This document shows, one piece after another, positions 5,127-23,706 of a DNA stretch of 33,507 nt. Position 1 is the stretch's first letter. The number at the start of each line of letters is the position of its first letter. The notes under the pieces were generated by a model. The model worked only from the letters and a program-made list of their open reading frames with translations, did not search any database and was not told the origin of the DNA. A program made the translations under genes and the position numbers. This stretch comes from Myxococcota bacterium (GTDB lineage: Bacteria; Myxococcota_A; Polyangia; HGW-17): assembly GCA_018821305.1 (NCBI GenBank), contig JAHJMN010000073.1:1-33507 (forward strand), given 5' to 3'.

Positions 5127-5425
5127 TACACACCATCAAACAGTGAATCCAGGCCCGAAAGAAAATCCCTGTTTTCAAGATTTATTACTCCGCAGATAAG
5201 TTCTTCCTCCGCATAAGGAAGCAATCGCAAAGCAGTCAGAGGAAGAGGAGCAGAAATGAGTGCCACGGGTAAAAGAGCCTGCCCAAACACTGCCTTTTGT
5301 GCCATCAAAAGATTTTTAACATGGCCAAAAGCCGCCTGATGATGGACTTCGTAAAACCATCTACCAACAGCTTTTAAAAAAAGCACTGCTTTAGTATAAA
5401 GATCAGACAATTTCACTTCCTTCAT
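5126..5425 (-). CDS. Small conserved-looking protein between cstA and the TPR gene
   Basis: This protein of about 99 residues overlaps the 3' end of cstA and is coupled to the TPR gene (TAATG). Start choice is open: ATG at 5425 is used here. GTG at 5416 has a better-placed AAAAGGA (8-base spacing), and the frame stays open to an ATG at 5473 deep inside cstA. The product is rich in aromatic and hydrophobic residues (FYEVHHQAAFGH, then a Leu/Ala/Pro stretch, then LRLLPYAEEEL). The pattern 'FYE...LRLLPY..EEL' faintly recalls small proteins sometimes encoded beside CstA carriers, but I cannot name the family with confidence. It is not YbdD-like. The hydrophobic centre (about 60-80) is too short and interrupted for a sure membrane segment. 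Confidence 0.6.
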   Translation of the reverse strand: MKEVKLSDLYTKAVLFLKAVGRWFYEVHHQAAFGHVKNLLMAQKAVFGQALLPVALISAPLPLTALRLLPYAEEELICGVINLENRDFLSGLDSLFDGV

Positions 5426-7019
5426 CCTTTTTTCTAATAACCTTAACCGCCTCAACGCCCAGAAAAAGTGCAAGAATAATTAAAATGGCGGCTAAACCGG
5501 CGAGAACTAACTTTCCGGTCTTTAAAAAACTGTAAATGTTCCAACCCAGGGCGCCCATAGTAATAAAATAAATAAAAACTCCAGGAATTGCCGCAAACGC
5601 AGATGGCTTTTTCCTGTGAATAAGCCAGACGGTAATTGCAAGGAAAGAAAGTGCTGCTAAAAGTTGATTTGCACTACCGAAAATAGGCCAGATTTCGCGA
5701 TCTGAACCACTGAACACCATGAGGGCGCCAGCGATAACAGTTATGATGGTAGAAACATATCGATTTTGGGCAATTATATTCTGTTTTTCGGACCTGGGAT
5801 TATAGGCAAGTTCCTGAACGGCAAATCTTCCCAGACGTGTTGCTGTATCAAGACTTGTCAGAGCAAAGGCGGCCACGGCAAGGGACATAAAAGTCCGCCC
5901 GAATTCAAATGGGATTCCAAGACTTGAAGCCATCTTCGCACTTTGAGATGAAAAAAGCGGTATTGCTCCGGAGGAAAACTTCTGATTGAAAGCTTCCGGA
6001 GTAAGAGCAGCAGCGGTAATTAAGGCTCCTGTTGCGAGGAGTGACTCAATAAGCATGGAACCAAACCCTACAGGCTTTGCATGGGCCTCAGATGCCAATT
6101 GTTTTGCAGTAGTTCCAGTGGAAACCAGAGAATGAAAACCACTAAGTGCCCCACAGGCTACAGTTACAAAAAGAAGCGGAACAAGGGGCCCCGAAGGAGT
6201 TGAAAATACAGGCTTTGCGGTATTTTTAAGCTCCGGATTAACCCATATTATTCCAGCAACGAGAATAAACAGCATTGCGTACAGAATAAAACTGTTTAAA
6301 TAATCCCTCGGTTGAAGTAAAAGCCATACAGGAAGCACGCTTGCAGCAAATATATAAATCAGAAGTATCACCCGCCAGGTGTTGACGGAAAGTTTGATTG
6401 GCCATAGAAATCCCGCATACATGGCAAGTCCAAGAAAACCAATCCCCAGTATTGTAGAAGCAATAAAATTAAAATTCCAGCGATATACTCCCAAGCCGAA
6501 CACTATGGCAATTACCATAAAAATCATTGAACTTGTACCCGTCTGAGGTACTTTAACAAAAGTCACGGCAACGGCATTGGTAAATACACTGATTACCAGA
6601 ATAAGAGCAGCATAAACAAACAGGAGAAATAGTATTTTTGATGTACGCCCCATTCGCTCTTCAATGACCATTCCCAGAGATTTTCCCCCATGACGAATAC
6701 TTATGACAAGAGCTGAGAAATCATGGACAGCCCCCATGAAAAGTCCTCCGAGAACAATCCAGAGAAAAACAGCAATCCACCCGAAATAGGCTGCAGTAAT
6801 GGGTCCAATAATCGGCGCTGCACCAGCGATTGATGAGAAGTGATGGCCCACCAGTACTCCCGGTCTGGTTGGCACGTAATCAATACCATCGTTTATCTCT
6901 TCTGCGGGAGTTTTACGGGTTTCATCAATACCCAATTGCCTGCTGACATAGTTTCCCCAGAACTTATATCCTACAATAAAAAACACTATAGATGAAATAA
7001 TAAGAACAAGCCCATTCAT
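5403..7019 (-). CDS. cstA: CstA-family carrier (carbon starvation protein A)
   Basis: CstA/BtsT carriers are inner-membrane transporters linked to peptide uptake during carbon starvation and to pyruvate uptake. The 538-residue product has many hydrophobic segments. Family hallmarks include GHHFSSIAGAAPIIGP (about 58-73), GGLFMGAVHDFSALVISIRHGGKSLG (about 90-116), FHSLVSTGTTAKQL (about 295-308), TSLDTATRLGRF (about 395-406) and FGSANQLLAAL (about 448-458). It is shorter than E. coli CstA (about 700) but within the range of the short clade. ATG directly follows the stop of the histidine kinase gene (TAA-ATG), and the 3' end overlaps the next gene. Lying downstream of a peptide-binding lipoprotein and a sensor kinase, it is probably the uptake arm of a peptide or pyruvate response system (inference). 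Confidence 0.93.
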   Translation of the reverse strand: MNGLVLIISSIVFFIVGYKFWGNYVSRQLGIDETRKTPAEEINDGIDYVPTRPGVLVGHHFSSIAGAAPIIGPITAAYFGWIAVFLWIVLGGLFMGAVHDFSALVISIRHGGKSLGMVIEERMGRTSKILFLLFVYAALILVISVFTNAVAVTFVKVPQTGTSSMIFMVIAIVFGLGVYRWNFNFIASTILGIGFLGLAMYAGFLWPIKLSVNTWRVILLIYIFAASVLPVWLLLQPRDYLNSFILYAMLFILVAGIIWVNPELKNTAKPVFSTPSGPLVPLLFVTVACGALSGFHSLVSTGTTAKQLASEAHAKPVGFGSMLIESLLATGALITAAALTPEAFNQKFSSGAIPLFSSQSAKMASSLGIPFEFGRTFMSLAVAAFALTSLDTATRLGRFAVQELAYNPRSEKQNIIAQNRYVSTIITVIAGALMVFSGSDREIWPIFGSANQLLAALSFLAITVWLIHRKKPSAFAAIPGVFIYFITMGALGWNIYSFLKTGKLVLAGLAAILIILALFLGVEAVKVIRKKDEGSEIV

Positions 7020-9758
7020 TTACTCAACCACTTTTTCAGTTCCGACGGAAATGGGAAGAATTACAGTGAATGAAGTCTCTCCGGGCCTTGAAGTGACTTT
7101 AATATCCCCTCCGTGGCGCTTTTTAACGATAGAATGAACAATACCAAGACCCAGTCCTGATCCTTCGCCGGTTTTCTTTGTTGTGAAGAACGGTTCAAAT
7201 ATTTTATCGAGTACGTCCGGGGAAATTCCTTTACCCGTATCCGTTACAGTAACACAAATTTTGTCTCCGGCCTCCACCTGGGTGCGTATCAGTATCATCC
7301 CTTTGCCTTCAATGGCTTGTGATGCATTTGTTATAAGATTCGTCCACACCTGGGACAGCTCATCACCGAATACTCGTGCAGGGGGAATTTCACTGTATTC
7401 ACGAACAATGGTTATGTTCTGCTTCAATCGGTTTGCCAGAATAACAAGGGAAGTTTCAATTCCGTCATGGATGTTAGTCCACTCCGGTACATCCTGATGA
7501 ACATGACTGTACGCTCTCAATGCCTTGACAATTGTAAGAATTGAATGAGTGGCCCTGCCCATGGAACCGATATTCTTAACAATTAACAGGAATTCGAGTA
7601 TAAATGCAGTGAACAATGGAGCGTGCTCATCGCCTCGCTGATTTAAAAATTCGGTTATGAGCTCAACAGCTTTAAGTTCCGTAAATTTTCTTGCGGTTTG
7701 TCTTGAATTCTGAACTCCGTGTTTCTCAAGCTTTTCAACAAACCTGTTAAGCATTTCCCGGTCAGGATCCCTCGAATCCGTAGTATAGGCAAAGTCGGAC
7801 AGGAAATTTTCCATGAGGGTCAATGCAAATGTAAGTGTCGAAGTATCATGAACATTTTCACTTATTAAAATCAGATTATCGAGAAAAACTTTTATCTGTC
7901 GTGATAAATTACCAGTGGCAGCCTCAATGGCCCCGATGGGGGTATTTATTTCGTGAGCTATGCCTGCCATCAATGACCCCAAACCCGCAAGTCTGTCATT
8001 AATTCGAACTTTGTATTGAGTAGCGGTTAGTTCTTCCAGAGCGTTCTCAAGTTGTTCATTGGAGCGGATAAGCAACTGCGTTCGTTCCTCAACCATCTGT
8101 TCAAGGTGCTCATTGAATGAACTGATTTTTTCATAAAGTTGAGCATTAACGAGATAAATACCCACCTGATCGAAAACACGATTTAGAACCCTGATGTGAA
8201 CGTCATTCCATTTTCCAGATTCAGTGTTCCGGTAAAACAGCGCACAGGCAAGATAGTCATCCTTTAAATGAACAGGGAAAGCTATAAGTTCCCCTTCAAG
8301 ATCTCCATCAGTAACTTCTTTCTTAATGCTGTTTATATGAATAAAAGACCCTTTGTTAATTGCAGCTTTAAAAACAGCAACATTTTTATATTTAAGGTCC
8401 GGCAGTTTTTCCCCGGAAATTCCATCGGAAATAACGCAGTGCCACTTTCCATCCTCAGTTTTCAACATAAGAGCACTGTCAGAAGCCTGAATTGCAAGAG
8501 AAATGCTGTTAAGTACCTCAGAAGCAACATTTTCCAGTCCCACCTGAACACTGATAGCGTTTGCAATTTCGTTCATAGTCTGAATTTCAGACATCTGTAC
8601 TGCCTGCTTGTCCCGCAGTACACGCAGTTCACGCGTCATATTATTAAAAGACTGACTTACTTCGCCAATTTCATCCCCACGATCAATTTCGATTTCAACG
8701 TTGAGATCACCTTTTGCAATTTCCTGAACTTTGTAAACAAGTTGATCCAAAGGCCTGGAAATATTTCCTGCAAGCCAACTGGCGAGACCGATTACAATGA
8801 GGAGAGCCAAAAGTGAAACAAGTACGATGGTCAAAATAGCGTCATTACGACCTTTTTGTATTGCACCCACATTCATACCCACACCAAATACAGCTACAGG
8901 AACGCCTCGGTTGTTATAAAGTAGTCTGGAAGCAAAACTGTATCTGGCCCTACCCACCGTTGATTCAAAGATCGTTGTTTTACTATGTGTATTACGGGAT
9001 TTACTGATGTTTTTTTCGCTCACAGGGATGCGCGTTAAAGGCTGGTTATCAGTATTTCGAAAACTGCTGACGAAATCCGCAGAAGGATCACCTTCTATGG
9101 GATAAAGTATGATCTGACTCCCCAGAACTGTGCTCAAATTCTGACAAAAGAGGCTATCAAGTACTGTAGTTACAGCTAAAGCGCCTTTAAGATCATAATT
9201 TTCATCGAGAATAGGGATGAGTGCCCGGATGTAAATCTGATTGATTCCTTTGCGACTCCCGTACCTTACCTTCCAGATGAAAATATCAAGGGATGTGGAA
9301 TAGTCCTTCAAAGCTTTATTGATAAGATCCCTTGATACATCAAGAGATTCTTCATAATCCCTTTCAATTTCCTTTTTAGTTGTTATTTCATCAACATTTC
9401 CAAGATAGATTGAACCTCTGACTTCCCCTTTTTTAGATAGTGTTTGAATTGATCCATAACCAAGGTTCTGAAAATCTTTCCGAATCTGAGCCTTCTGATT
9501 AAAAGTCAGTTCGCCACCATTTAAAAGCACGTGGATATGATTTTTTTTAACAAGTGAGGAGGCTGCATTCTTAACGGTTTCAATCTGAGAAACTACCAGA
9601 TTTACTCCAACGTTTAGATTCTGCATAGTTTCAGCTTGTAAATTTCCCCGAAGGCGTTTCAAAATAACCCGGATACTTACAGCACTTGCCGTAATAGCAG
9701 GCAGAAGTGCAACTATGGCCATCCAGATTACCAGTTTATGTCTGATTCTGAACTTCAT
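7020..9758 (-). CDS. Membrane sensor histidine kinase (Cache-HAMP-GAF-HisKA-HATPase)
   Basis: This 912-residue kinase is anchored by two membrane segments (about 10-30 and 307-330). They flank a periplasmic domain of about 270 residues that looks like a double Cache ligand-binding domain. HAMP follows (about 331-385, ending in DEIGEVSQSFN), then a GAF-like domain (about 400-540) and a coiled coil. The phosphoacceptor His is at 602 in GIAHEINTP. The ATPase domain carries an N box (NLITNASQAI, about 808-817), a G1 box (DTGKGI, about 840-845) and a G2 box (GEGSGLGLG, about 864-872). There is no receiver, and no response regulator lies nearby. His to N box spans about 209 residues, against about 109 in the other kinase of this window, so roughly 100 residues are inserted after the H box. 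It overlaps the binding-protein gene by one base (TGATG). Confidence 0.92.
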   Translation of the reverse strand: MKFRIRHKLVIWMAIVALLPAITASAVSIRVILKRLRGNLQAETMQNLNVGVNLVVSQIETVKNAASSLVKKNHIHVLLNGGELTFNQKAQIRKDFQNLGYGSIQTLSKKGEVRGSIYLGNVDEITTKKEIERDYEESLDVSRDLINKALKDYSTSLDIFIWKVRYGSRKGINQIYIRALIPILDENYDLKGALAVTTVLDSLFCQNLSTVLGSQIILYPIEGDPSADFVSSFRNTDNQPLTRIPVSEKNISKSRNTHSKTTIFESTVGRARYSFASRLLYNNRGVPVAVFGVGMNVGAIQKGRNDAILTIVLVSLLALLIVIGLASWLAGNISRPLDQLVYKVQEIAKGDLNVEIEIDRGDEIGEVSQSFNNMTRELRVLRDKQAVQMSEIQTMNEIANAISVQVGLENVASEVLNSISLAIQASDSALMLKTEDGKWHCVISDGISGEKLPDLKYKNVAVFKAAINKGSFIHINSIKKEVTDGDLEGELIAFPVHLKDDYLACALFYRNTESGKWNDVHIRVLNRVFDQVGIYLVNAQLYEKISSFNEHLEQMVEERTQLLIRSNEQLENALEELTATQYKVRINDRLAGLGSLMAGIAHEINTPIGAIEAATGNLSRQIKVFLDNLILISENVHDTSTLTFALTLMENFLSDFAYTTDSRDPDREMLNRFVEKLEKHGVQNSRQTARKFTELKAVELITEFLNQRGDEHAPLFTAFILEFLLIVKNIGSMGRATHSILTIVKALRAYSHVHQDVPEWTNIHDGIETSLVILANRLKQNITIVREYSEIPPARVFGDELSQVWTNLITNASQAIEGKGMILIRTQVEAGDKICVTVTDTGKGISPDVLDKIFEPFFTTKKTGEGSGLGLGIVHSIVKKRHGGDIKVTSRPGETSFTVILPISVGTEKVVE

Positions 9759-11350
9759 CAGTCTTCCAGCCTCACAAGGTTATAAAGGGTTGTTGTGTCC
9801 ATGTTGTGTTTAAGATTAAGGACCCTTTTATTATACGCAACAACGATTTTAGCATATACGAGGGGCACCCACGGAGCTTCATTTTTAAAAATATCAAGGG
9901 CTTTGCGATAAAATTCCGCTCTGAGTGACGGCTTATCAATAGTGCGACCTTTATAAACCGCTTCATTATAAGCTGAGTCATTGAACTTGGAATAATTTGT
10001 TCCCGTAGACGAATAGTGAAGTAGACCAAAAAGAAAGTTATCGGGATCCCACAGGTCGCCAATCCATGAGTGAATTGCCATTTCATGCTTTCCCGTCGCC
10101 AGAGCAGTTTTGTAATCACGGTATTCGAGGGCATGTATTTTTACTTCGATACCCATTCGCCGGAAATCATTCCTGATCAGATTTGCCATAAGAAGTGGGT
10201 TCGGAAGCGTGCCACGGGGATTACGAATAACGTATAAATTAAGAGGCTTTGAAGCCATCTGTTCGGCAAAACCACCTTCTCGAAATAATTCCAATGCTCT
10301 GGCCTGATTATATTCATACCAGGGCCATGATTTTTTATAAATCTTGATTCCATCAATTGTCAGGTACGGCGGAATTGGCGCATTTGCGGTATCACCAGTC
10401 CCCTGATAAACCATTTTGTTTATTTTGTCTCTATCAATGAGATGATTTGCTGCAATGCGGTTTTGTCTGATAGAAAAAGGATATTTTTGTGTATTCAATG
10501 CAAGATAGGCAACGTTAACACTTTGAACTTTTTTAAGGGCCAGAGAAGGATGAAGTCCAATAGCAAGGTGCCCTTCCGGATCCAGGTGGTATGCAATATC
10601 AGCTTGTCCACCTTCAAGAGCAAGCACCCTCTGGCGATTTTCTGGTATTGTTTGAAATACCAGATATTCGTACGAAGCCTTTAGTTTACTGTTCCAGTAA
10701 GCGGAATTTCGCTTAAGTACAACACGCCCCTCCATGCGACGATGAATTTTGAAAGGTCCTGTTCCTACGGGGTTTTTATCAAGAGAATCAGGCTTTTCTT
10801 CGGAAAAAGGTGCAACAATGTAGACGGAAAATATCTCCAGCATTTTCAAAAATGGAGCATAATTGTATTTAAGCGTAAACCGGACGGCATAATCGGAAAT
10901 AACTTTAACATCGTCAATCATGTTAAAATAAGCTTTCCAGTACGAAAAGTTGCAGTTGTATTTTGAAGATGTCCCTTTCTGGACAGCTTCCATCTGACGC
11001 TTAAAACTGAAGGCTACAGCCTGAGCATTCAGAACCATTCCATTGTGGAATTTGATACCCTCGCGAACTTTTACATCCCAGACGAGACCGTTTTCACTAC
11101 TCTTCACAGACTGTGCTAAACGCATTTTTACCTGGTGAGTATCAGGATCTTCGTAGACAAGCCCTTCATAAATTTGGGAAATTACTTCAGCACTTTCCCA
11201 ACCATCAGCACAGGCGGGATCAAGGGTTGTAATATCTTTTGCCCATGCAACCACAAGCGTATTTTTACGCGTCATGCCTCTTTGAGAGTCTCCGGAAGAA
11301 CAACCGGAAAGCCAGAGAAAGTTTAAAAGCACTAGAGCAATGATTTTCAT
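9758..11350 (-). CDS. Family 5 extracellular solute-binding lipoprotein (DppA/OppA-like)
   Basis: This lipid-anchored periplasmic binding protein is of the SBP_bac_5 class, which usually captures di/oligopeptides, sometimes nickel or other ligands. ATG at 11350 is chosen over 11371 because GGAG sits 9 bases upstream and the signal peptide then begins cleanly (MKIIALVLLNFLWLSGC). Family features: TLDPA near the mature N terminus, YEGLVYEDPDT, LRLAQS-type segment, GVKFHNG-like 'GIKFHNGMVLNAQAVAFSF', NPVGTGPFK, and the C-terminal WVPLVYAK. No permease or ATPase genes accompany it. Instead it is co-transcribed with a Cache-type kinase and CstA, so it may present peptide to the sensor or to CstA rather than to a classical ABC importer (inference). 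A 106-base gap to sppA probably holds the operon promoter, but I cannot resolve it. Confidence 0.92.
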   Translation of the reverse strand: MKIIALVLLNFLWLSGCSSGDSQRGMTRKNTLVVAWAKDITTLDPACADGWESAEVISQIYEGLVYEDPDTHQVKMRLAQSVKSSENGLVWDVKVREGIKFHNGMVLNAQAVAFSFKRQMEAVQKGTSSKYNCNFSYWKAYFNMIDDVKVISDYAVRFTLKYNYAPFLKMLEIFSVYIVAPFSEEKPDSLDKNPVGTGPFKIHRRMEGRVVLKRNSAYWNSKLKASYEYLVFQTIPENRQRVLALEGGQADIAYHLDPEGHLAIGLHPSLALKKVQSVNVAYLALNTQKYPFSIRQNRIAANHLIDRDKINKMVYQGTGDTANAPIPPYLTIDGIKIYKKSWPWYEYNQARALELFREGGFAEQMASKPLNLYVIRNPRGTLPNPLLMANLIRNDFRRMGIEVKIHALEYRDYKTALATGKHEMAIHSWIGDLWDPDNFLFGLLHYSSTGTNYSKFNDSAYNEAVYKGRTIDKPSLRAEFYRKALDIFKNEAPWVPLVYAKIVVAYNKRVLNLKHNMDTTTLYNLVRLED

Positions 11351-11456
11351 TTCGAATGACTCCAACGGCATTTTAATAAAATTTCAGGATAATTACCAGC
11401 TGAAGGATGGAATTCTGCCATAGACTTTCAATATGCAGGATATAAGATTCTAAAGA

Positions 11457-14729: not shown

Positions 14730-16589
14730 TTACTCCGTGGTGGTACAGTCGAAGGGGCAAAGTTGGGAGTTTTCACCGGCAGCAGTTTCGCACTTTCCAT
14801 CCCCGCAGTAGCAGTCTCCAGGACAGATAAACGTATTTTCATTGTCCGTCAGGGAGCAGACTCCGTCACCACAGTAGCAATCAGACGGACATAAAAGGCG
14901 GGTTTCACCAAGAGCATCTTCACAGTGTCCATTTCCGCAGTGCCAACATTCTCCGCAATCTTCCGGGCAACTCGTGCAGGTTTCTTCACGTTCGATATCA
15001 CAAACAGTATCACCACAAAACGGGCATGAGCCGCAATCGGCGGGACAGGAAATACAAGTTTCATTCATCGCGCAAATTCCGTCACCGCATAATTCGCAGT
15101 TTCCACAATCAACGGGACAAAGCGCGCAGTTTTCTCCATCTCCGCATTCTCCATCACCGCATTCGTTTGAGCCGCAATCGTAATGACACCAGGATGTGGC
15201 AATGGCAATGCAGTTAAGATCCCACATATTGCTGCAGCAGTAAGAATCCATAGCACAGACGCATTTATTTACCCATTGTACCTCGGTTTGATCATAATTT
15301 ACCGTACAGACATCACCACCGGTGCAGGTGCCACAATCGGAAGGACAGGAGGCACAATGTTCACCACTACCGAAAGTGCAACTTCCGTCACCACAATCCG
15401 GAGGCAAAGGCCCACAGTCGTACTCACAAATACCAGCGCCTTCAGTACATAATCCGTCGCCGCAGACTCCGCATGGACCGCAGTCAGCATTGCAACTCCA
15501 GCAGTTTTCGCCCTTTTCAATTTCGCATATTCCGTTACCGCAATCGGACGGGCAAACCTGACCACAACTGCGGCACCGGGCGGCGCATGTGGCATCCCAA
15601 CTGTGAGTGCAGCAGTATGGGTCCTCATTACAGACGCAGTCAAAACAATCACAATCGGTACAACCGGGCAGAGTATCTGCATTGCAACCGTCCAAAGTAG
15701 AGCAACCACCGCAATCGGCGGAACAAGAATCACAGGTTTCAGTTCCGTTGCAACTACCATCACCGCACTGTGGAATGCAGATACCACAATCTTCCGGGCA
15801 TACCTCACAGGTTTCGTCACCAGTGCACTGCGAATCACCACAGTAATTTGTACAGGTTCCACCACAAGTAGTTGCACAGAGCATAACGCAGCGGGAATCC
15901 CATCTTGCAGTGCAGCAGTTTGAATCTATTGCGCATACACAGTTCGTACAACTGCATCCGTCACATCCGGGACCTTCAATTACACTGCACTGGTCTCCCG
16001 GAGTACAGTCCCCGCAATCAAAAGCGCATGTATTGCAGTTTTCCCCGTCGTTTATGTCACAATAACCATCGCCGCATTCCAATGGACAAATACCGCACTC
16101 CGAAGGACAGGTATGACAGTTTTCCGCTGCATCACATATACCATTACCGCAGGTTTCAGGACACTCCCCACAATCTTCCGCACAGTTTATGCAGGTTTCA
16201 TTACTTGAACAAAGGCCATCACCGCACCCAGTGGGGCATAATCCGCAATCTTCCGGGCAGGTTTCACAGGTTTCTTCACCTTCGTAGCAGGTTCCATCAC
16301 CGCAGGTGGAGCAGTTACCACAGTCTTCGGGGCAATTGTCGCAGTCTTCGGAGAAAATATTACAATCTCCGTCGCCGCAGGTCCCGCAATTGCCACAATC
16401 GTCGGAGCAATTATTACAGTTTTCAAGAGCGCTGTTACAGAAGTTATCTCCACAAACAGCGCATATGTCATTTTCATCACAGATGCAGGATGGATCTCCC
16501 GGACAAACGGGGGGTGGATCTTTCTTTTTTTCAACGCAGGCAATAAAGCCCCAGGAAATTGCAAAAAGAAATAAGTAGATGCGCTTCAT
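14730..16589 (-). CDS. Secreted cysteine-rich protein with 17 CGDGxC repeats
   Basis: This 619-residue protein begins with a signal peptide ending in FIAC (MKRIYLFLFAISWGFIAC), probably a lipoprotein although the lipobox is not ideal. A Lys/Pro linker follows, then 17 repeats of the form CGDGxC-x(4-8)-C-xxC-xxDCGxC (about 25 residues each). The last three repeats lack one Cys pair. Three repeats carry an inserted module of the form CxCxxCVCxxDxxCCxxxWDxxC (about 205-230, 315-340 and 455-475). Regular Asp/Gly/Asn loops next to cysteines suggest metal (calcium) binding as well as disulfides, but this is inference. Such repeats occur in secreted or surface proteins of Myxococcota and related groups, without a known function. 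ATG overlaps the stop of the upstream gene by 4 bases, so the pair is translated together. Confidence 0.85.
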   Translation of the reverse strand: MKRIYLFLFAISWGFIACVEKKKDPPPVCPGDPSCICDENDICAVCGDNFCNSALENCNNCSDDCGNCGTCGDGDCNIFSEDCDNCPEDCGNCSTCGDGTCYEGEETCETCPEDCGLCPTGCGDGLCSSNETCINCAEDCGECPETCGNGICDAAENCHTCPSECGICPLECGDGYCDINDGENCNTCAFDCGDCTPGDQCSVIEGPGCDGCSCTNCVCAIDSNCCTARWDSRCVMLCATTCGGTCTNYCGDSQCTGDETCEVCPEDCGICIPQCGDGSCNGTETCDSCSADCGGCSTLDGCNADTLPGCTDCDCFDCVCNEDPYCCTHSWDATCAARCRSCGQVCPSDCGNGICEIEKGENCWSCNADCGPCGVCGDGLCTEGAGICEYDCGPLPPDCGDGSCTFGSGEHCASCPSDCGTCTGGDVCTVNYDQTEVQWVNKCVCAMDSYCCSNMWDLNCIAIATSWCHYDCGSNECGDGECGDGENCALCPVDCGNCELCGDGICAMNETCISCPADCGSCPFCGDTVCDIEREETCTSCPEDCGECWHCGNGHCEDALGETRLLCPSDCYCGDGVCSLTDNENTFICPGDCYCGDGKCETAAGENSQLCPFDCTTTE

Positions 16590-18621: not shown

Positions 18622-18683
18622 TCTCTTCCCCCACACTTCATTTTCTCCCGATTAATTTCATTTCAACAACATAAACATTGAAG

Positions 18684-18737
18684 AAAACCTGCCGATTAAT
18701 ATAATCGGTTAAAAGTAATGATTTAAAGACAGGTTTT
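18684..18737 (+). promoter_or_regulatory. Structured leader just before the corrinoid operon
   Basis: Two nested stems lie immediately upstream of the ATG at 18742: an inner perfect hairpin CCGATTA-ATA-TAATCGG (18692-18708) and outer arms AAAACCTG (18684-18691) with CAGGTTTT (18730-18737). The only Shine-Dalgarno-like bases, AGG at 18731-18733, lie inside the outer 3' arm, so folding would hide them. This could be a translational switch. It is far too small to be a cobalamin riboswitch, and I see no B12 box. Confidence 0.5.
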
Positions 18738-18741
18738 AAAA

Positions 18742-19437
18742 ATGAATGATGAATCATTTTTCAATCTCAATCGAAGCAGGCTTCTCAATTATATCCTTGA
18801 AGGAGAACAAAGCCGAGCGCTGGAACATCTGAACACTTTATCTGAATCCATGGGACACAATGCCGTTATGGATAAGATTCTCAGTCCAGTATTAGTAAAT
18901 ATTGGCAATCTCTGGCATCAGGAGCAAATAAGCCTTGCGGCGGGATATCTTGCCGGGAAAATTACGGAAACTTTTCTTTTGACTCTTAAGCCTGAAGAAA
19001 AACCATCGCAGTCTGCGGGCACTGCCGTTATCGGAAACATCGAAGATGACTATCACTCTCTTGGACGCAAACTTGTGGGGACGTTCCTTAACTACGCAGG
19101 GTGGAAGGTCATCGATCTCGGTAACGATGTACTCCCTGTAACCTTTATTGATGCTGCTTTAGAAAATAAAGCTCATGTCATCGGGGTATCCGCAATGATG
19201 CTTACCACTGCCCGGAATATAATTGAAGTGCGGCGGGAGCTTGATCGGCGAGGATTCGAGGGAAAAATTCCTCTGGCCGTTGGTGGAGCGGTGTTCAAAG
19301 TTCGTCCTGACCTCGTTAGTGAACTTGGGGGGGATGGAACTGCAGACAATGCAATTGATGCTCCGGCTTTGTTTGTAAAACTGAAAAATTCATTTTCGGG
19401 AGTCAGTGGTCTTCCCCGGGACGGTGTAACACAATGA
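18742..19437 (+). CDS. Corrinoid (B12-binding) protein, MtaC/MtbC-like
   Basis: This 231-residue protein has the two-domain layout of methyltransferase corrinoid proteins. A helical N-terminal cap (about 10-85, with GNLWHQEQISLAAG) is followed by a Rossmann B12-binding domain (about 92-215). The lower-ligand motif DxHxxG is intact (D103-Y-H105-S-L-G108), so base-off/His-on cobalamin binding is expected. The later motifs are VIDLGND (123-129), a slightly changed SxL (S150-A-M152) and the GG turn (181-182). Such proteins carry a methyl group on Co(I) between methyltransferases. It is the first gene of the operon and overlaps the UroD-like gene by 4 bases (ATGA). No substrate-specific MtxB-type methyltransferase and no reductive activator lies in the window. 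Confidence 0.92.
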   Translation: MNDESFFNLNRSRLLNYILEGEQSRALEHLNTLSESMGHNAVMDKILSPVLVNIGNLWHQEQISLAAGYLAGKITETFLLTLKPEEKPSQSAGTAVIGNIEDDYHSLGRKLVGTFLNYAGWKVIDLGNDVLPVTFIDAALENKAHVIGVSAMMLTTARNIIEVRRELDRRGFEGKIPLAVGGAVFKVRPDLVSELGGDGTADNAIDAPALFVKLKNSFSGVSGLPRDGVTQ

Positions 19438-20450
19438 AACCAATCGGGTATGTCATGTCAGCTATAAATGGCAAAACTGAAGATCGCCGTGCCTTTACCA
19501 TGCTGCTGAGTCTCTATGGTGCCCGTTTGACTGATTGCGACCCTGAGCTTTATTTTTCCGATCCTCAAAAGTACCTGCAGGGCCAGATAGCTGTTTTTGA
19601 TGCATTTACTCCGGACATCATTTTCTCCCCTTTTGCCCTGGCATTTGAAACAAAACGATTCGGAACGACGCTGATTTTTCCGGGGAAATATCCACCTAAC
19701 ATAAAAAAACCATCATCATTATCCGTCAGTGAAATAATTAAAACCTTTCCGGCGTCTCCATCGGAAGATCCTGCCATTAAATACATGGTTTCGTGCGTCA
19801 AACTCCTGAAAAATCATTTCGGAGATGATGTTCCCATCTGTTCTCCCATTGTTTCCTGCACAGATCTTCCGGCAATGGTGCTTGGTATCGAAGCATGGAT
19901 AGATCTGCTAATCTCAGATCCTGACACTGCAAGCGCGTTTCTTGAATTTACAACCGCACACTTCAAAGCATACTCAGATATGCTTTTTGAAGCTGGCTCT
20001 TCATTTCTGGTGGTTCCATCCGGATTTACAAATCCACAATTAATGTACCCCGGGCTAATTGAAAATGTGTGTCTGAAAGCCCTTGAAGAATCCTTTTCAA
20101 AACTCAAAGGCCCAGCAGTGCTGCACCATGGGGGCACCAGATTCGATTTCCTTTTTGAAAAACCATTTTCACTTCCAAATATGGCTGGTGTTTTAATAGA
20201 TTCAAAAGACTCGTTTTCAAAAGCGAGAAGTTCAGTACCTACGGGAACACTTCTAATTGGTAATTTTCAGGGCCCTATGCTGAACGCCCGGGACCCGGAT
20301 TTCATTATAAATTCTATTCAAAAAATACTGGAAAATCGAAAAGACGATCCTCACTTCATTTTCTGTACAAGCGGAGCTGATGTTCCCTGGGACACACCGT
20401 ATGAAAATTTAAAAATCGTTTCAGATTTTTTCACGAAGGCCCATAGGTGA
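19434..20450 (+). CDS. UroD/MtaA-like protein lacking the zinc cysteines
   Basis: This 338-residue protein belongs to the uroporphyrinogen decarboxylase/MtaA-MtbA superfamily (TIM barrel). Family members beside corrinoid proteins move methyl groups between cobalamin and coenzyme M or other thiols, using a zinc ion held by H-x-C and a later Cys. Here the first motif reads L-H231-H232-G233-G234 (usual LHxCG), and the second reads SGA315DVPWDTPYENL (usual GCxxPxxTPxEN). The His remains but both cysteines are replaced, by Gly and Ala; Cys311 lies four residues upstream. The barrel is otherwise well kept. Loss of the zinc site argues against thiol methylation and suggests a different acceptor, or a binding/sensing role. 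DUF1638 follows after 3 bases. Confidence 0.88.
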   Translation: MKPIGYVMSAINGKTEDRRAFTMLLSLYGARLTDCDPELYFSDPQKYLQGQIAVFDAFTPDIIFSPFALAFETKRFGTTLIFPGKYPPNIKKPSSLSVSEIIKTFPASPSEDPAIKYMVSCVKLLKNHFGDDVPICSPIVSCTDLPAMVLGIEAWIDLLISDPDTASAFLEFTTAHFKAYSDMLFEAGSSFLVVPSGFTNPQLMYPGLIENVCLKALEESFSKLKGPAVLHHGGTRFDFLFEKPFSLPNMAGVLIDSKDSFSKARSSVPTGTLLIGNFQGPMLNARDPDFIINSIQKILENRKDDPHFIFCTSGADVPWDTPYENLKIVSDFFTKAHR

Positions 20451-20453
20451 TTA

Positions 20454-21029
20454 ATGGAAATACCACATATTATATGCTGCGGAATTCTAGAAACTGAGGT
20501 CCGCAGAATACTTTCTGAGGATTACCCCGGTCTTGATGCGGTTTTCTGTAATTCCATTCTCCACATGAAACCTGAATCACTTCAGGGCGTACTCAATGAA
20601 AAAATCAAACCCGGCTATCACAATATACTGTTATATGGCGACTGTGCTCCGCATATAAGCGATCTTGAAAAACAGCCCGACTTTCATCGCCCTCCCGTTG
20701 TAAACTGCATCGAAATGCTTTTAGGTCCCGATCTCTACCGAAGCCTTCGCCGGGACAGGGCTTTCTTCATGATGCACGAATGGTCCCATCGCTGGCGCGA
20801 AATCTTTATTGATGAAATGGGTTTTTCGTCGGAAAAACAGGCGGGGATTTTTTTGCGGGAAAACTGCAGCAGAATCATATATCTCGATACGGGTTCTGTT
20901 GAAATTCCCCACGACATTATTGAAGATATAAGTACAGCTTTCGAAATATCCGTTGAAATCGAAAGTGTTTCACTGGATACTTTGCGTAGTTATATTAAAA
21001 ACATAATCAGTGAAACCGGTTATTGCTAA
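20454..21029 (+). CDS. DUF1638 family protein
   Basis: This 191-residue protein resembles DUF1638, a family of unknown function that commonly lies next to corrinoid and UroD-like methyltransferase genes. Visible family features are the N-terminal IICCGILETEV (about 6-16), LH near 36-37, LLYGDCA (about 58-64) and the central VVNCIEMLLG motif (about 81-90), followed by FMMHEWSHRW (about 104-113). Several Cys and His residues (C8, C9, C63, C83, H108, H112) could bind a metal or take part in C1 chemistry, but this is inference. No signal peptide, so cytoplasmic. Its stop shares one base with the kinase ATG (TAATG), pointing to coupled translation. Confidence 0.82.
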   Translation: MEIPHIICCGILETEVRRILSEDYPGLDAVFCNSILHMKPESLQGVLNEKIKPGYHNILLYGDCAPHISDLEKQPDFHRPPVVNCIEMLLGPDLYRSLRRDRAFFMMHEWSHRWREIFIDEMGFSSEKQAGIFLRENCSRIIYLDTGSVEIPHDIIEDISTAFEISVEIESVSLDTLRSYIKNIISETGYC

Positions 21030-23065
21030 TGAATTTGGACAAACTCACTTTAATCCTTCAGCAGAATCTGCTCCTTGATATTCTTCATATGTCTGAAGAT
21101 ATGGGTGATGCTGCGGGACATGTGACGACCAAGATCCGCGAAATCGTCGGTGCCCGCACCGTTGCTCTTTTTGAAATAAATACCGAGGGGAAATTCATCC
21201 TTTCCGGTATAGGCCCTGAGAAAAGAAGATACATTTTTTCCACTGTTGAAGGTCAATCTTTAGTGGATCTGTGCCTCGAAATGGACAATATAAGCCTTAT
21301 TAATCCCGGAGAGGGAGGGTCGGGGAAACTCCTTGAAAAACTTGGCCTTGCTCATTCCATTGCAGTCCCCCTTAAAGATCGCAATGAAACTCTCGGTCTT
21401 CTGCTTATTTTAGACCTCATGGATACCGTGGGTGTCAAATCCGTAATGGACAGTTTTGCTTCTCTCAGTTCCCTGCTGGCTATTATTCTTCGAAATTCAT
21501 TTTTATATAGAAACATGGAAGATCTGGTGGAAAAACGCACCTCGGATCTCCGTCGAAGTGAAGAACGCTTCCGCCGACTTGTGGAGGGCCTTGGAAATGA
21601 ACACTGTATATTCAGTTATTCCCCTGATGGCACAATCAACTATGCAAGTCCCGGAATAAAATCCATCTTTGGAATTTCGCCTGAAGAAATTATCGGTAAA
21701 AACAGGAGAATATTACCCCTTACTGCCGAATCAGCTGAATTAATGAACTCCTCTGATAATTTCATTCTCCAGAATTTACAGCGACAGATTATTGAAATTA
21801 AAGCACAATTGAGTAATGATGACCGACGGATTGTCATGGTAAACCATGCTCCGGCCATGGAAGAAAAAGAAATTACTGCCATTGAAGGTATTTTCACCGA
21901 CATCACTGATTACAGGCGAGCTCAGGAAGAAAAAGAAAAACTCAATTTTCAGGTCAACCAGCTCCAGAAACTGGAATCCCTCGGTATTTTAGCAGGTGGA
22001 ATAGCTCATGATTTTAATAATATGCTTGGCGGGATCCTTGGCTGCATTGAAATTGCAAGCCTTGATACACAAGATCCCGAAGTAAGTGCTTCCTTAAAAA
22101 TGGCCCTTTCCGTAATGGAGCGTGCCCGGAGTCTCACAGGGCAACTTCTCACGTTTGCCCGGGGAGGAGCCCCGGTTAAAAAACCGGCCCCGCTGTTTCC
22201 CTTCGTTCGGGAAACGTCGGAATTTGCCTTAACGGGATCAAGTTGCAATGCTTCTTATGATGTTCCACCAAACCTCTGTAACGCCGATTATGACCCCAGT
22301 CAGATAGGTCAGGTAATCGAAAACATCGTCATTAACGCCGCCCAGTCCATGGCTTCCGGAGGCACGATTAAAATTTCAGCTTCCAACGAAATCGTTTCCA
22401 CAGGTGATGATTCAACTCTTACAGTTGGCCCCTACGTTAAAATTTCATTTTCTGATTCCGGGTGCGGCATACCTTCTGATAACCTTTCCCGAATCTTCGA
22501 ACCGTTTTTCACCACCAGGAAAAAAGGCCACGGGCTCGGACTGGCAACTTCGTTTTCCATTGTTAAAAGACATGGCGGCACCATCACCGTCAGTTCCAGT
22601 CCCGGTTGCACCTGCTTTTCCATATGGCTTCCGGCTACAACTCAAGCAACTGAGGCTCAGAGTCGGATCCTGCCACAAGTCCATAGGGGAAGCGGCATCA
22701 TTGTAATTGTAGATGACGATGAAGCAGTACGGCGGGTTTTAACCCGTTTACTTGAAAGTTTCGGATACACGATTGTTGCAAAAGAAAACGGTGTTGACGG
22801 ACTCGAATATGTATGGAACGCCCGGGAAATGGGCACTGAAATAAAAGCGATGATTTTCGACCTTACGATTCCCGGTTCCATGGGGGGTAAAGAAGCTATC
22901 GAAATAATCCGGCGGGCTGGCATAAAAACACCGGTTTTCGTTGCTTCCGGTTATGCCGACGATCCCTGCATTGCTCACCCGGAAAATTACGGATTCACTG
23001 ACAGCATATCAAAACCTTTCCTCAAGCAGGCCCTATCAAATCTCCTGTCCACACACCTGTCATAA
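21029..23065 (+). CDS. Soluble hybrid histidine kinase (GAF-PAS-HisKA-HATPase-REC)
   Basis: ATG at 21029 is preferred to TTG at 21023 because it overlaps the DUF1638 stop as TAATG; this gives 678 residues. There is no membrane segment or signal peptide, so the signal is cytoplasmic. Domains (numbered from the TTG, two higher than from ATG): GAF about 20-160, short coiled coil, PAS about 180-300, phosphoacceptor H329 in GIAHDFNNML, N box near 438 (VINAAQS), G1 (DSGCGI, about 478-483), G2 (KGHGLGLA, about 501-508), and receiver about 558-680 with acidic DDD (564-566), phospho-Asp D613 and Lys664 (SKPF). No output domain or separate regulator is present, so phosphate would pass to a distant partner. 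Position after three C1/B12-type genes suggests it senses methyl-corrinoid, corrinoid redox state or a C1 substrate (inference). Confidence 0.92.
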   Translation: MNLDKLTLILQQNLLLDILHMSEDMGDAAGHVTTKIREIVGARTVALFEINTEGKFILSGIGPEKRRYIFSTVEGQSLVDLCLEMDNISLINPGEGGSGKLLEKLGLAHSIAVPLKDRNETLGLLLILDLMDTVGVKSVMDSFASLSSLLAIILRNSFLYRNMEDLVEKRTSDLRRSEERFRRLVEGLGNEHCIFSYSPDGTINYASPGIKSIFGISPEEIIGKNRRILPLTAESAELMNSSDNFILQNLQRQIIEIKAQLSNDDRRIVMVNHAPAMEEKEITAIEGIFTDITDYRRAQEEKEKLNFQVNQLQKLESLGILAGGIAHDFNNMLGGILGCIEIASLDTQDPEVSASLKMALSVMERARSLTGQLLTFARGGAPVKKPAPLFPFVRETSEFALTGSSCNASYDVPPNLCNADYDPSQIGQVIENIVINAAQSMASGGTIKISASNEIVSTGDDSTLTVGPYVKISFSDSGCGIPSDNLSRIFEPFFTTRKKGHGLGLATSFSIVKRHGGTITVSSSPGCTCFSIWLPATTQATEAQSRILPQVHRGSGIIVIVDDDEAVRRVLTRLLESFGYTIVAKENGVDGLEYVWNAREMGTEIKAMIFDLTIPGSMGGKEAIEIIRRAGIKTPVFVASGYADDPCIAHPENYGFTDSISKPFLKQALSNLLSTHLS

Positions 23066-23120: not shown

Positions 23121-23259
23121 GCCTGTTTTGGCTACTTCCTGATTACCTTATTTTTTAAACAGGAATTCAGGCAGTCAGGTAAACAGGGACAGGATCAGGT
23201 CATAAACATCCAATATCATTTAATAATTAAAAAGACTGGAGGCAAATATTCACTTTTTA
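23121..23259 (+). repeat. Dispersed palindromic repeat, family 1, copy 2
   Basis: Left arm CCTG words, centre TTATTTTTTAAAC, right arm CAGGCAGTCAGGTAAACAGG, then the shared tail CATAAACATCCAATATCA and CAAATATTCACTTTT. It carries a slightly shortened left arm compared with copies 3 and 4. Confidence 0.85.
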
Positions 23260-23319
23260 CAACGCTTTCGGGGTAATACGATAGTAAATAATTTAATGAA
23301 ATGCTTCAGGAGAAAGCCC

Positions 23320-23478
23320 CTGATTGTCCTGTTGCTGCTACTGATTTCCTGATTACCTGTTAAAAAAGTCAGGAACACAGGAATTCAGGCAGTCAGGTAA
23401 ACAGGGACAGGCGCAGGGCGTAAACATTCAATATCAATGGAAAATTACAAAGACTGGAAGCAAATATTCACTTTTTAA
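23320..23478 (+). repeat. Dispersed palindromic repeat, family 1, copy 3
   Basis: This is the longest copy here. Left arm CCTGTTGCTGCTACTGATTT and CCTGATTACCTG, right arm CAGGAATTCAGGCAGTCAGG and TAAACAGGGACAGG, then the tail GTAAACATTCAATATCA and CAAATATTCACTTTT. Tail and right arm match copy 2 nearly base for base. Confidence 0.87.
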
Positions 23479-23553
23479 ATTTCGAGCCTTTTACTCATTA
23501 AGCGGAGTACTACGATTGTGACTCGTTTTAATGAAATGCTTCAGGAATGAGCC

Positions 23554-23706
23554 CCCTGTTTTCCTGTTCCTGCTACTGCTTACCTGTATCCCTGAAATTT
23601 TTTAACAGTGACCCAGGTAGTCAGGTAAACAGGATCAGGATCAGGTCATAAACATTCAACATCAAAGCATAATTACAAATGTCAGGATGAAAACATTCAT
23701 TTTTCT
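23554..23706 (+). repeat. Dispersed palindromic repeat, family 1, copy 4
   Basis: Left arm CCTGTTTTCCTGTTCCTG, centre GAAATTTTTTAACAG, right arm CAGGTAGTCAGGTAAACAGG followed by ATCAGGATCAGG, then the tail ATAAACATTCAACATCA. It is closest to copy 1, including the tail word GATGAAAACATTCA. Confidence 0.87.

Follow-up and report, generated by a model that had tools for sequence, protein, structure and literature searches.

Free-standing cofactor proteins encoded beside the soluble hybrid kinase that they control are known from the H-NOX/HnoK and NosP/NahK systems. Most of what is known of B12-based signalling concerns CarH-like repressors and photoreceptors. A DUF1638 protein is required for B12-dependent methionine synthesis in Phaeobacter (PMC5764234), and the family has been tied both to this synthesis and to cobalamin reactivation (PMC5764234, PMC12478193); CdmB of Acetobacterium dehalogenans, a chloromethane methyltransferase with the UroD fold, is active without zinc (PMC13222342). 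In this work, we have analysed a stretch of 33,507 nucleotides (contig JAHJMN010000073.1, the whole stretch being called here the window) from a Myxococcota bacterium, whose genome is 5.2 Mb and 97.7% complete. Four adjacent genes of the window code for a corrinoid-binding protein (COR), a barrel protein of the URO-D/MtaA type (URO), a DUF1638 protein and a soluble hybrid histidine kinase. Our sequence comparisons make it probable that the four genes form one pathway, a module that gives the kinase a corrinoid-based sensory input. The features of the locus are the following:

18742..19437, plus strand: COR, corrinoid (B12)-binding protein with a B12-binding_2 cap and a B12-binding domain (Pfam, closest PDB matches)
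19048-19065, plus strand: COR motif D103xH105xxG (sequence)
19434..20450, plus strand: URO, URO-D/MtaA-like TIM barrel without the MtaA zinc triad (Pfam, best PDB match MtaA 4ay7)
20454..21029, plus strand: DUF1638 protein with invariant Cys9, Cys64 and Cys85 (Pfam, conservation)
21029..23065, plus strand: soluble hybrid histidine kinase (Pfam, H-box, receiver, hydropathy)
Plus strand, domains of this kinase: GAF about 21107-21412, PAS about 21566-21904, HisKA about 21989-22171, HATPase about 22292-22639, REC about 22700-23041
18678..18708: candidate operon promoter TTGAAG-16-TATAAT, overlapping the palindrome CCGATTAATATAATCGG at 18692-18708 upstream of COR

The original prediction, made from the letters of the window, had proposed that the kinase reads the methylation or redox state of the corrinoid protein, and had asked for the co-occurrence of the four families in other genomes. 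Relatives of the window DUF1638 were collected from GTDB genomes with an alignment of five cassette-group DUF1638s, which gave 80 loci (labels beginning with L denote such DUF1638 neighbourhoods); three of them were known beforehand (L054, L061 and L069, L061 being the same locus as L020), and 77 were new. In 70 of the 77, COR, URO and DUF1638 are followed, in this order and on one strand, by a kinase or a PAS/GAF signalling protein; of the remaining seven, five run off the contig at its upstream edge and two at its downstream edge. Three loci in which our script scored no sensor (L065, L073, L080) were reassigned by inspection, multi-PAS or GAF-PAS proteins being present downstream. The 80 loci are spread over at least 12 phyla (Spirochaetota, Bacteroidota, Ignavibacteriota, Chloroflexota, Planctomycetota, Acidobacteriota and Bacillota, and further Myxococcota, Thermodesulfobacteriota, Pseudomonadota, Nitrospirota, Verrucomicrobiota, Omnitrophota and Hydrogenedentes).

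The same association was found in two samples drawn independently of synteny by PF07796 searches, one in the class and phylum of the window (38 loci) and the other in the class of Geothrix (36 loci), and sorted by neighbourhood. Taken together, 47 of the 48 URO-bearing loci carry a kinase or another signalling protein beside DUF1638 or fused to it, and the remaining one, L157, is truncated by the end of its contig. The first sample holds 17 loci with COR and URO, of which 12 have a histidine kinase, one a GAF-PAS protein (L005) and three CxxC-type fusions (L026, L028, L160), while the 17th is the truncated L157; there are also 10 loci with COR and DUF1638 but without URO, all with MttB, eight also with RamA and none with a kinase, and 10 more DUF1638 genes that stand alone. 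In the second sample the 31 loci with COR and URO comprise 26 with a kinase, four with a CxxC-type fusion and one with a DUF1638-PAS-GGDEF protein (L230), the exceptions being two lone loci, two kinase loci without detected COR or URO, and an unclassified one. DUF1638 therefore has two settings, a metabolic one with MttB and RamA and a signalling one with URO and a kinase. Thus the kinase stays with COR, URO and DUF1638 across related genomes, as the original prediction needed, and the possibility that it was restricted to this genome was rejected. The opposite pattern, a regular company of substrate methyltransferase and activator, was not what these loci presented: MttB was seen only at DUF1638 loci lacking both URO and kinase, and RamA lies beside a minority of the cassettes.

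Gene fusions link the components further. DUF1638 and a histidine kinase share one reading frame in at least 15 loci (L025, L027, L062, L074, L081, L153, L154, L155, L156, L158, L159, L161, L200, L223 and L225); the most informative of them, the L200 protein of 880 residues, has the arrangement DUF1638-GAF-PAS-HisKA-HATPase-REC and is colinear with gene 3 of the window (34% over 186 aa) and then with gene 4 (26% over 687 positions). A different output is carried by the same module in L230:4332-6299, which codes for DUF1638-PAS-GGDEF, a diguanylate cyclase, and in L026, L028, L160 and L226-L229 DUF1638 is followed within one protein by a GAF-like region, and the C-terminus carries CxxCKKIRDD...FSHGxCPxC or a similar segment, without a Pfam match. 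COR and URO are fused in five loci (L066, L071, L102, L105 and L107). Single false fusions could be produced by assembly error, but so many across unrelated genomes hardly could. The DUF1638 tree, built in quick mode and with long branches, served for grouping and not for the number of fusion origins. These comparisons show, at the level of gene organization, that the four genes belong together, with COR linked to URO and DUF1638 linked to the kinase, in each case by fusion. Since COR is fused to URO and DUF1638 to the kinase, the fusions suggest a path from COR·URO through DUF1638 to the kinase.

We propose that COR with its bound cobamide would dock on URO, a repurposed corrinoid-methyltransferase barrel, which would present to it a methyl donor or a small ligand. 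The state of COR·URO (methylated, redox or ligand-bound) would be passed to DUF1638, which, seated at the kinase's N-terminal region (here the GAF, elsewhere PAS), would set its autophosphorylation, and the phosphate would go to the kinase's own receiver and from there to an unlinked output. The upstream proteins would then control the kinase directly, and the signal would be a methyl donor or the C1/corrinoid status, with URO either methylating Co(I)-COR or binding methyl-COR; we hold the specific methyl-transfer reading only tentatively. With similar reserve we put forward a distinct, enzyme-like class of receptor. Its corrinoid protein would gain a methyl group, or change its cobalt state, while on a repurposed methyltransferase barrel; DUF1638, by a three-cysteine site, may then translate this state into the activity of a histidine kinase or a diguanylate cyclase, and many non-methylotrophic bacteria could in this way sense methylated compounds or C1/corrinoid status. 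Of the signal pathway first suggested for this locus, the linkage of COR, the UroD-like protein and DUF1638 to a kinase is borne out by the conserved quartet and the DUF1638-kinase fusions; that corrinoid methylation or redox state is what the kinase reads, we infer.

The genes themselves are as the original prediction had described them. COR and URO overlap by 4 bases, URO and DUF1638 are separated by 3, and DUF1638 overlaps by 1 base the kinase, for which an ATG at 21029 is the start and a TTG at 21023 is also allowed by the open reading frame list. COR matches the Pfam B12-binding (2.7e-20) and B12-binding_2 (3.3e-6) families and, having both the DxHxxG cobamide motif, intact as D103-Y-H105-S-L-G108, and the B12 cap domain, qualifies as a corrinoid protein; the Asp and His of the motif are retained in 79 of 79 cassette relatives. 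Its nearest structures are the MttC-like corrinoid proteins 7xcn and 1y80, and it is nearer to methyltransferase corrinoid proteins (MttC 7xcn, TIGR02370) than to CarH, against whose model it scores 35.7 bits with a cut-off of 400 and whose MerR DNA-binding domain is absent. URO matches Pfam URO-D (5.4e-40), and its best PDB match by profile search is MtaA 4ay7, with which the L066 COR-URO fusion aligns by Foldseek with a TM of 0.86 by target length. It falls below the cut-offs of both family models, with 72 bits against 400 for MtaA and 35 against 600 for MtbA. At the zinc positions of the window URO H231 is retained, and G233 and A315 replace the two Cys; none of 84 URO members keeps the MtaA triad His-x-Cys...Cys, which is replaced by three lineage signatures (HHG with ADIPxDTPxEN; YYC-like with VMPxxIPEEN; ASxR with HGEIPxQVP). 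In the second of these clades the former Cys position may still be Cys, the His having become Tyr. We dropped zinc loss as proof of a dead enzyme, since CdmB, whose structure 9rui is matched by the URO profile, works without zinc (PMC13222342); because CdmB has the UroD fold, URO itself could, by analogy, be a substrate methyltransferase.

The third protein was recognised by Pfam as DUF1638 (2.2e-20, 73.6 bits against a gathering score of 27). Its AlphaFold model is confident (pLDDT 96.4, pTM 0.90) and had no PDB match at E <= 0.001, nor was there a profile match. The original prediction took its role to be unknown, which the Phaeobacter genetics corrects (PMC5764234). Cys9, Cys64 and Cys85 are essentially invariant across both the signalling and the metabolic members, and may form a metal or redox site. 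The kinase matches HATPase_c (1.5e-23), Response_reg (6.4e-15), PAS (2.5e-6) and GAF (1.5e-4) and shows a weak match to NF041832; its HisKA score of 25.2 bits is slightly below the cut-off, the H-box IAHDFNN being nonetheless present, so that H-box, HATPase_c and receiver together identify a hybrid histidine kinase. It is free of obvious transmembrane segments, as predicted (top 19-residue hydropathy 1.6). Within the clade of kinases that carry GAF, this domain is a recognisable subfamily in which Pro63 and an Arg or Lys at 65 are conserved (32 cassette kinases). No Cys or His is conserved among these 32 GAFs, and a heme or metal site was rejected on this ground; for the same reason a docking role appears more likely than a cofactor site.

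The commonest additional neighbour is a Fer2-RACo (RamA-like) gene, on the same strand and usually directly upstream of COR, found at 16 URO loci (L066, L077, L083 and L087, all of the PAS clade, and 12 others). In addition, 27 cassette genomes were scored for MttB (PF06253) and RamA/RACo (PF14574): MttB was not found in 25 of them and RamA not in 15, namely the window's genome, Geothrix fermentans and 13 others, so the module can exist without RamA. The missing partners noted in the original prediction are missing from the cassette's surroundings and also from the window's nearly complete genome. This genome has two B12-binding_2 proteins, the cassette COR and a MetH-like protein. HemE was not found in it, and because the cassette barrel is the only URO-D family member found, heme synthesis may be missing or follow another route.

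Several observations weigh against our interpretation. Most of the loci come from metagenome assemblies, and the pattern that yielded the 80 loci was built from cassette members, a bias that the synteny-independent samples answer in part. A DUF1638 of the cassette subfamily stands alone in L061; URO was not detected beside the DUF1638-kinase fusion and COR of L153 in the first sample, and neither COR nor URO beside the kinases of L195 and L222, the latter starting at a contig edge. The fourth gene of L005:9890-11629 (genome G006) stops after GAF-PAS, with a transposase fragment about 120 bp downstream, and this kinase may be truncated. No response regulator adjoins the window's kinase. Since RamA lies upstream of COR in the 16 RamA-bearing cassettes of the PAS clade, a Co(I) stage of their corrinoid is probable, and this would suit a catalytic role as well. 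Finally, co-occurrence and fusion do not by themselves show signal flow.

How far do these points favour other explanations? The cassette could be a small corrinoid methyltransferase operon, with URO as substrate:corrinoid methyltransferase, COR as carrier and DUF1638 as reactivation helper, which has its own regulatory two-component gene and whose enzymes do not signal. The upstream RamA genes would suit such an operon, as would the existence of zinc-free UroD-fold methyltransferases (CdmB, PMC13222342) and the need for DUF1638 in B12-dependent methionine synthesis (PMC5764234). However, control of expression would not require the fusions that DUF1638 makes with kinases, GGDEF and other signalling proteins; the kinases are mostly soluble and many have a receiver only; the neighbourhoods show no widely recurring methyl acceptor enzyme, transporter or dehydrogenase; and RamA and MttB are missing from many host genomes, as counted above. 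An ordinary methylotrophy operon was rejected as the main explanation on account of the kinase fusions and absent partners, and we consider the regulated operon quite improbable.

A sensor of another signal is a closer variant of the signalling module. DUF1638 could read apo-, Co(II)- or holo-COR, with the barrel as a structural platform, and so report cobamide supply or corrinoid damage. The loss of the URO zinc site, the link of DUF1638 elsewhere to corrinoid reactivation (PMC5764234, PMC12478193) and the few corrinoid proteins of the window's genome, which lacks RamA, are in keeping with this; yet the barrel is conserved in essentially every cassette, and its former zinc region bears signatures that differ by lineage. 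This points to a ligand site under selection rather than a bare scaffold, and we regard this variant as unlikely, though less so than the operon. The least probable explanation, which we find hard to credit, is a light or redox sensor in which COR binds alkylcobalamin as do CarH and the photocobilins, light or oxygen alters the axial ligand, and URO and DUF1638 relay the change without methyl transfer. COR does have a weaker likeness, in sequence and fold, to the B12 photoreceptors 8j2w and 8jbs, other outputs have been described for B12 photoreceptors (PMC10979010), and Co(I) cycling is not assured in a genome without RamA. Against it stand the closer relation of COR to MttC and TIGR02370 than to CarH and the MtaA-like nature of its partner. 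Moreover, many hosts (Geobacteraceae, Holophagaceae and bacteria of groundwater metagenomes) are from dark, anoxic habitats.

Around the four genes, the palindrome CCGATTAATATAATCGG is a possible operator; promoter-like sites are no commoner than in shuffled sequence, and the operon promoter is for this reason a weak candidate. Directly after the kinase gene (23159-23705) a 101-bp direct repeat occurs in three imperfect copies, with identities of 89% and 70%, spaced by 218 and 228 bp. Elsewhere in the window, the minus strand codes at 14733-16589 for a 619-residue protein of CGDGxCxxxExCxxCPxDCG-type repeats without a Pfam match, and at 5406-11371 for a CstA-like carbon starvation protein, a HAMP/HATPase kinase and an SBP_bac_5 solute-binding protein in a row, which make up a second signalling locus.

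If the module is indeed a corrinoid-based input to kinases, two-component systems in at least 12 phyla would have a new type of input. It would also account for many of the MtaA-like and corrinoid proteins in non-methylotrophs, which are easily annotated as methyltransferases. DUF1638, so far known only through genetic work on B12-dependent methionine synthesis, would receive a testable function, that of reading the corrinoid state. The natural fusions (COR-URO, DUF1638-GAF-PAS-HK-REC and DUF1638-GGDEF) make direct assays practical.

How does the cassette compare with the systems already described? The methylcobamide:coenzyme M methyltransferases MtaA and MtbA (4ay7) share with URO the URO-D superfamily barrel, and their natural partner is a methyl-corrinoid protein; unlike them, URO (84 members) has no zinc-binding HxC...C triad and is linked to kinases. 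In the corrinoid O-demethylase and Cdm chloromethane systems a UroD-fold protein is likewise paired with a corrinoid protein, but these belong to methylotrophic acetogens and have an MTII acceptor enzyme where the cassette has DUF1638 and a kinase (PMC13222342). The split methionine synthase, with DUF1638 and a RamA-like DUF4445 protein (Phaeobacter, PMC5764234; Ruegeria, PMC12478193), also places DUF1638 beside a corrinoid protein, and the three cysteines are common to cassette and URO-less DUF1638s; that system differs in being biosynthetic, with no UroD-like protein or kinase described (PMC5764234, PMC12478193). A B12-binding domain serves signalling in CarH/LitR and the photocobilin sensors too, although these are single-protein receptors without MtaA-like barrel or DUF1638, CarH being a DNA-binding repressor (PMC4557120, PMC10979010). 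MsmS and RdmS of Methanosarcina are, like our kinases, soluble, and are named methyltransferase-associated sensors, but they lack an H-box, are reported not to be autokinases, and no corrinoid/UroD/DUF1638 module has been described with them (PMC11784639). In the literature on corrinoid or cobalamin proteins with sensor kinases, judged by titles and abstracts, we found no description of the module. The known kind to which it would belong is that of accessory cofactor proteins controlling a soluble hybrid kinase, with a corrinoid input that we did not find described. From H-NOX/HnoK and NosP/NahK the cassette differs in its chemistry and composition: heme, nitric oxide and one accessory protein in those systems, a corrinoid and three proteins here.

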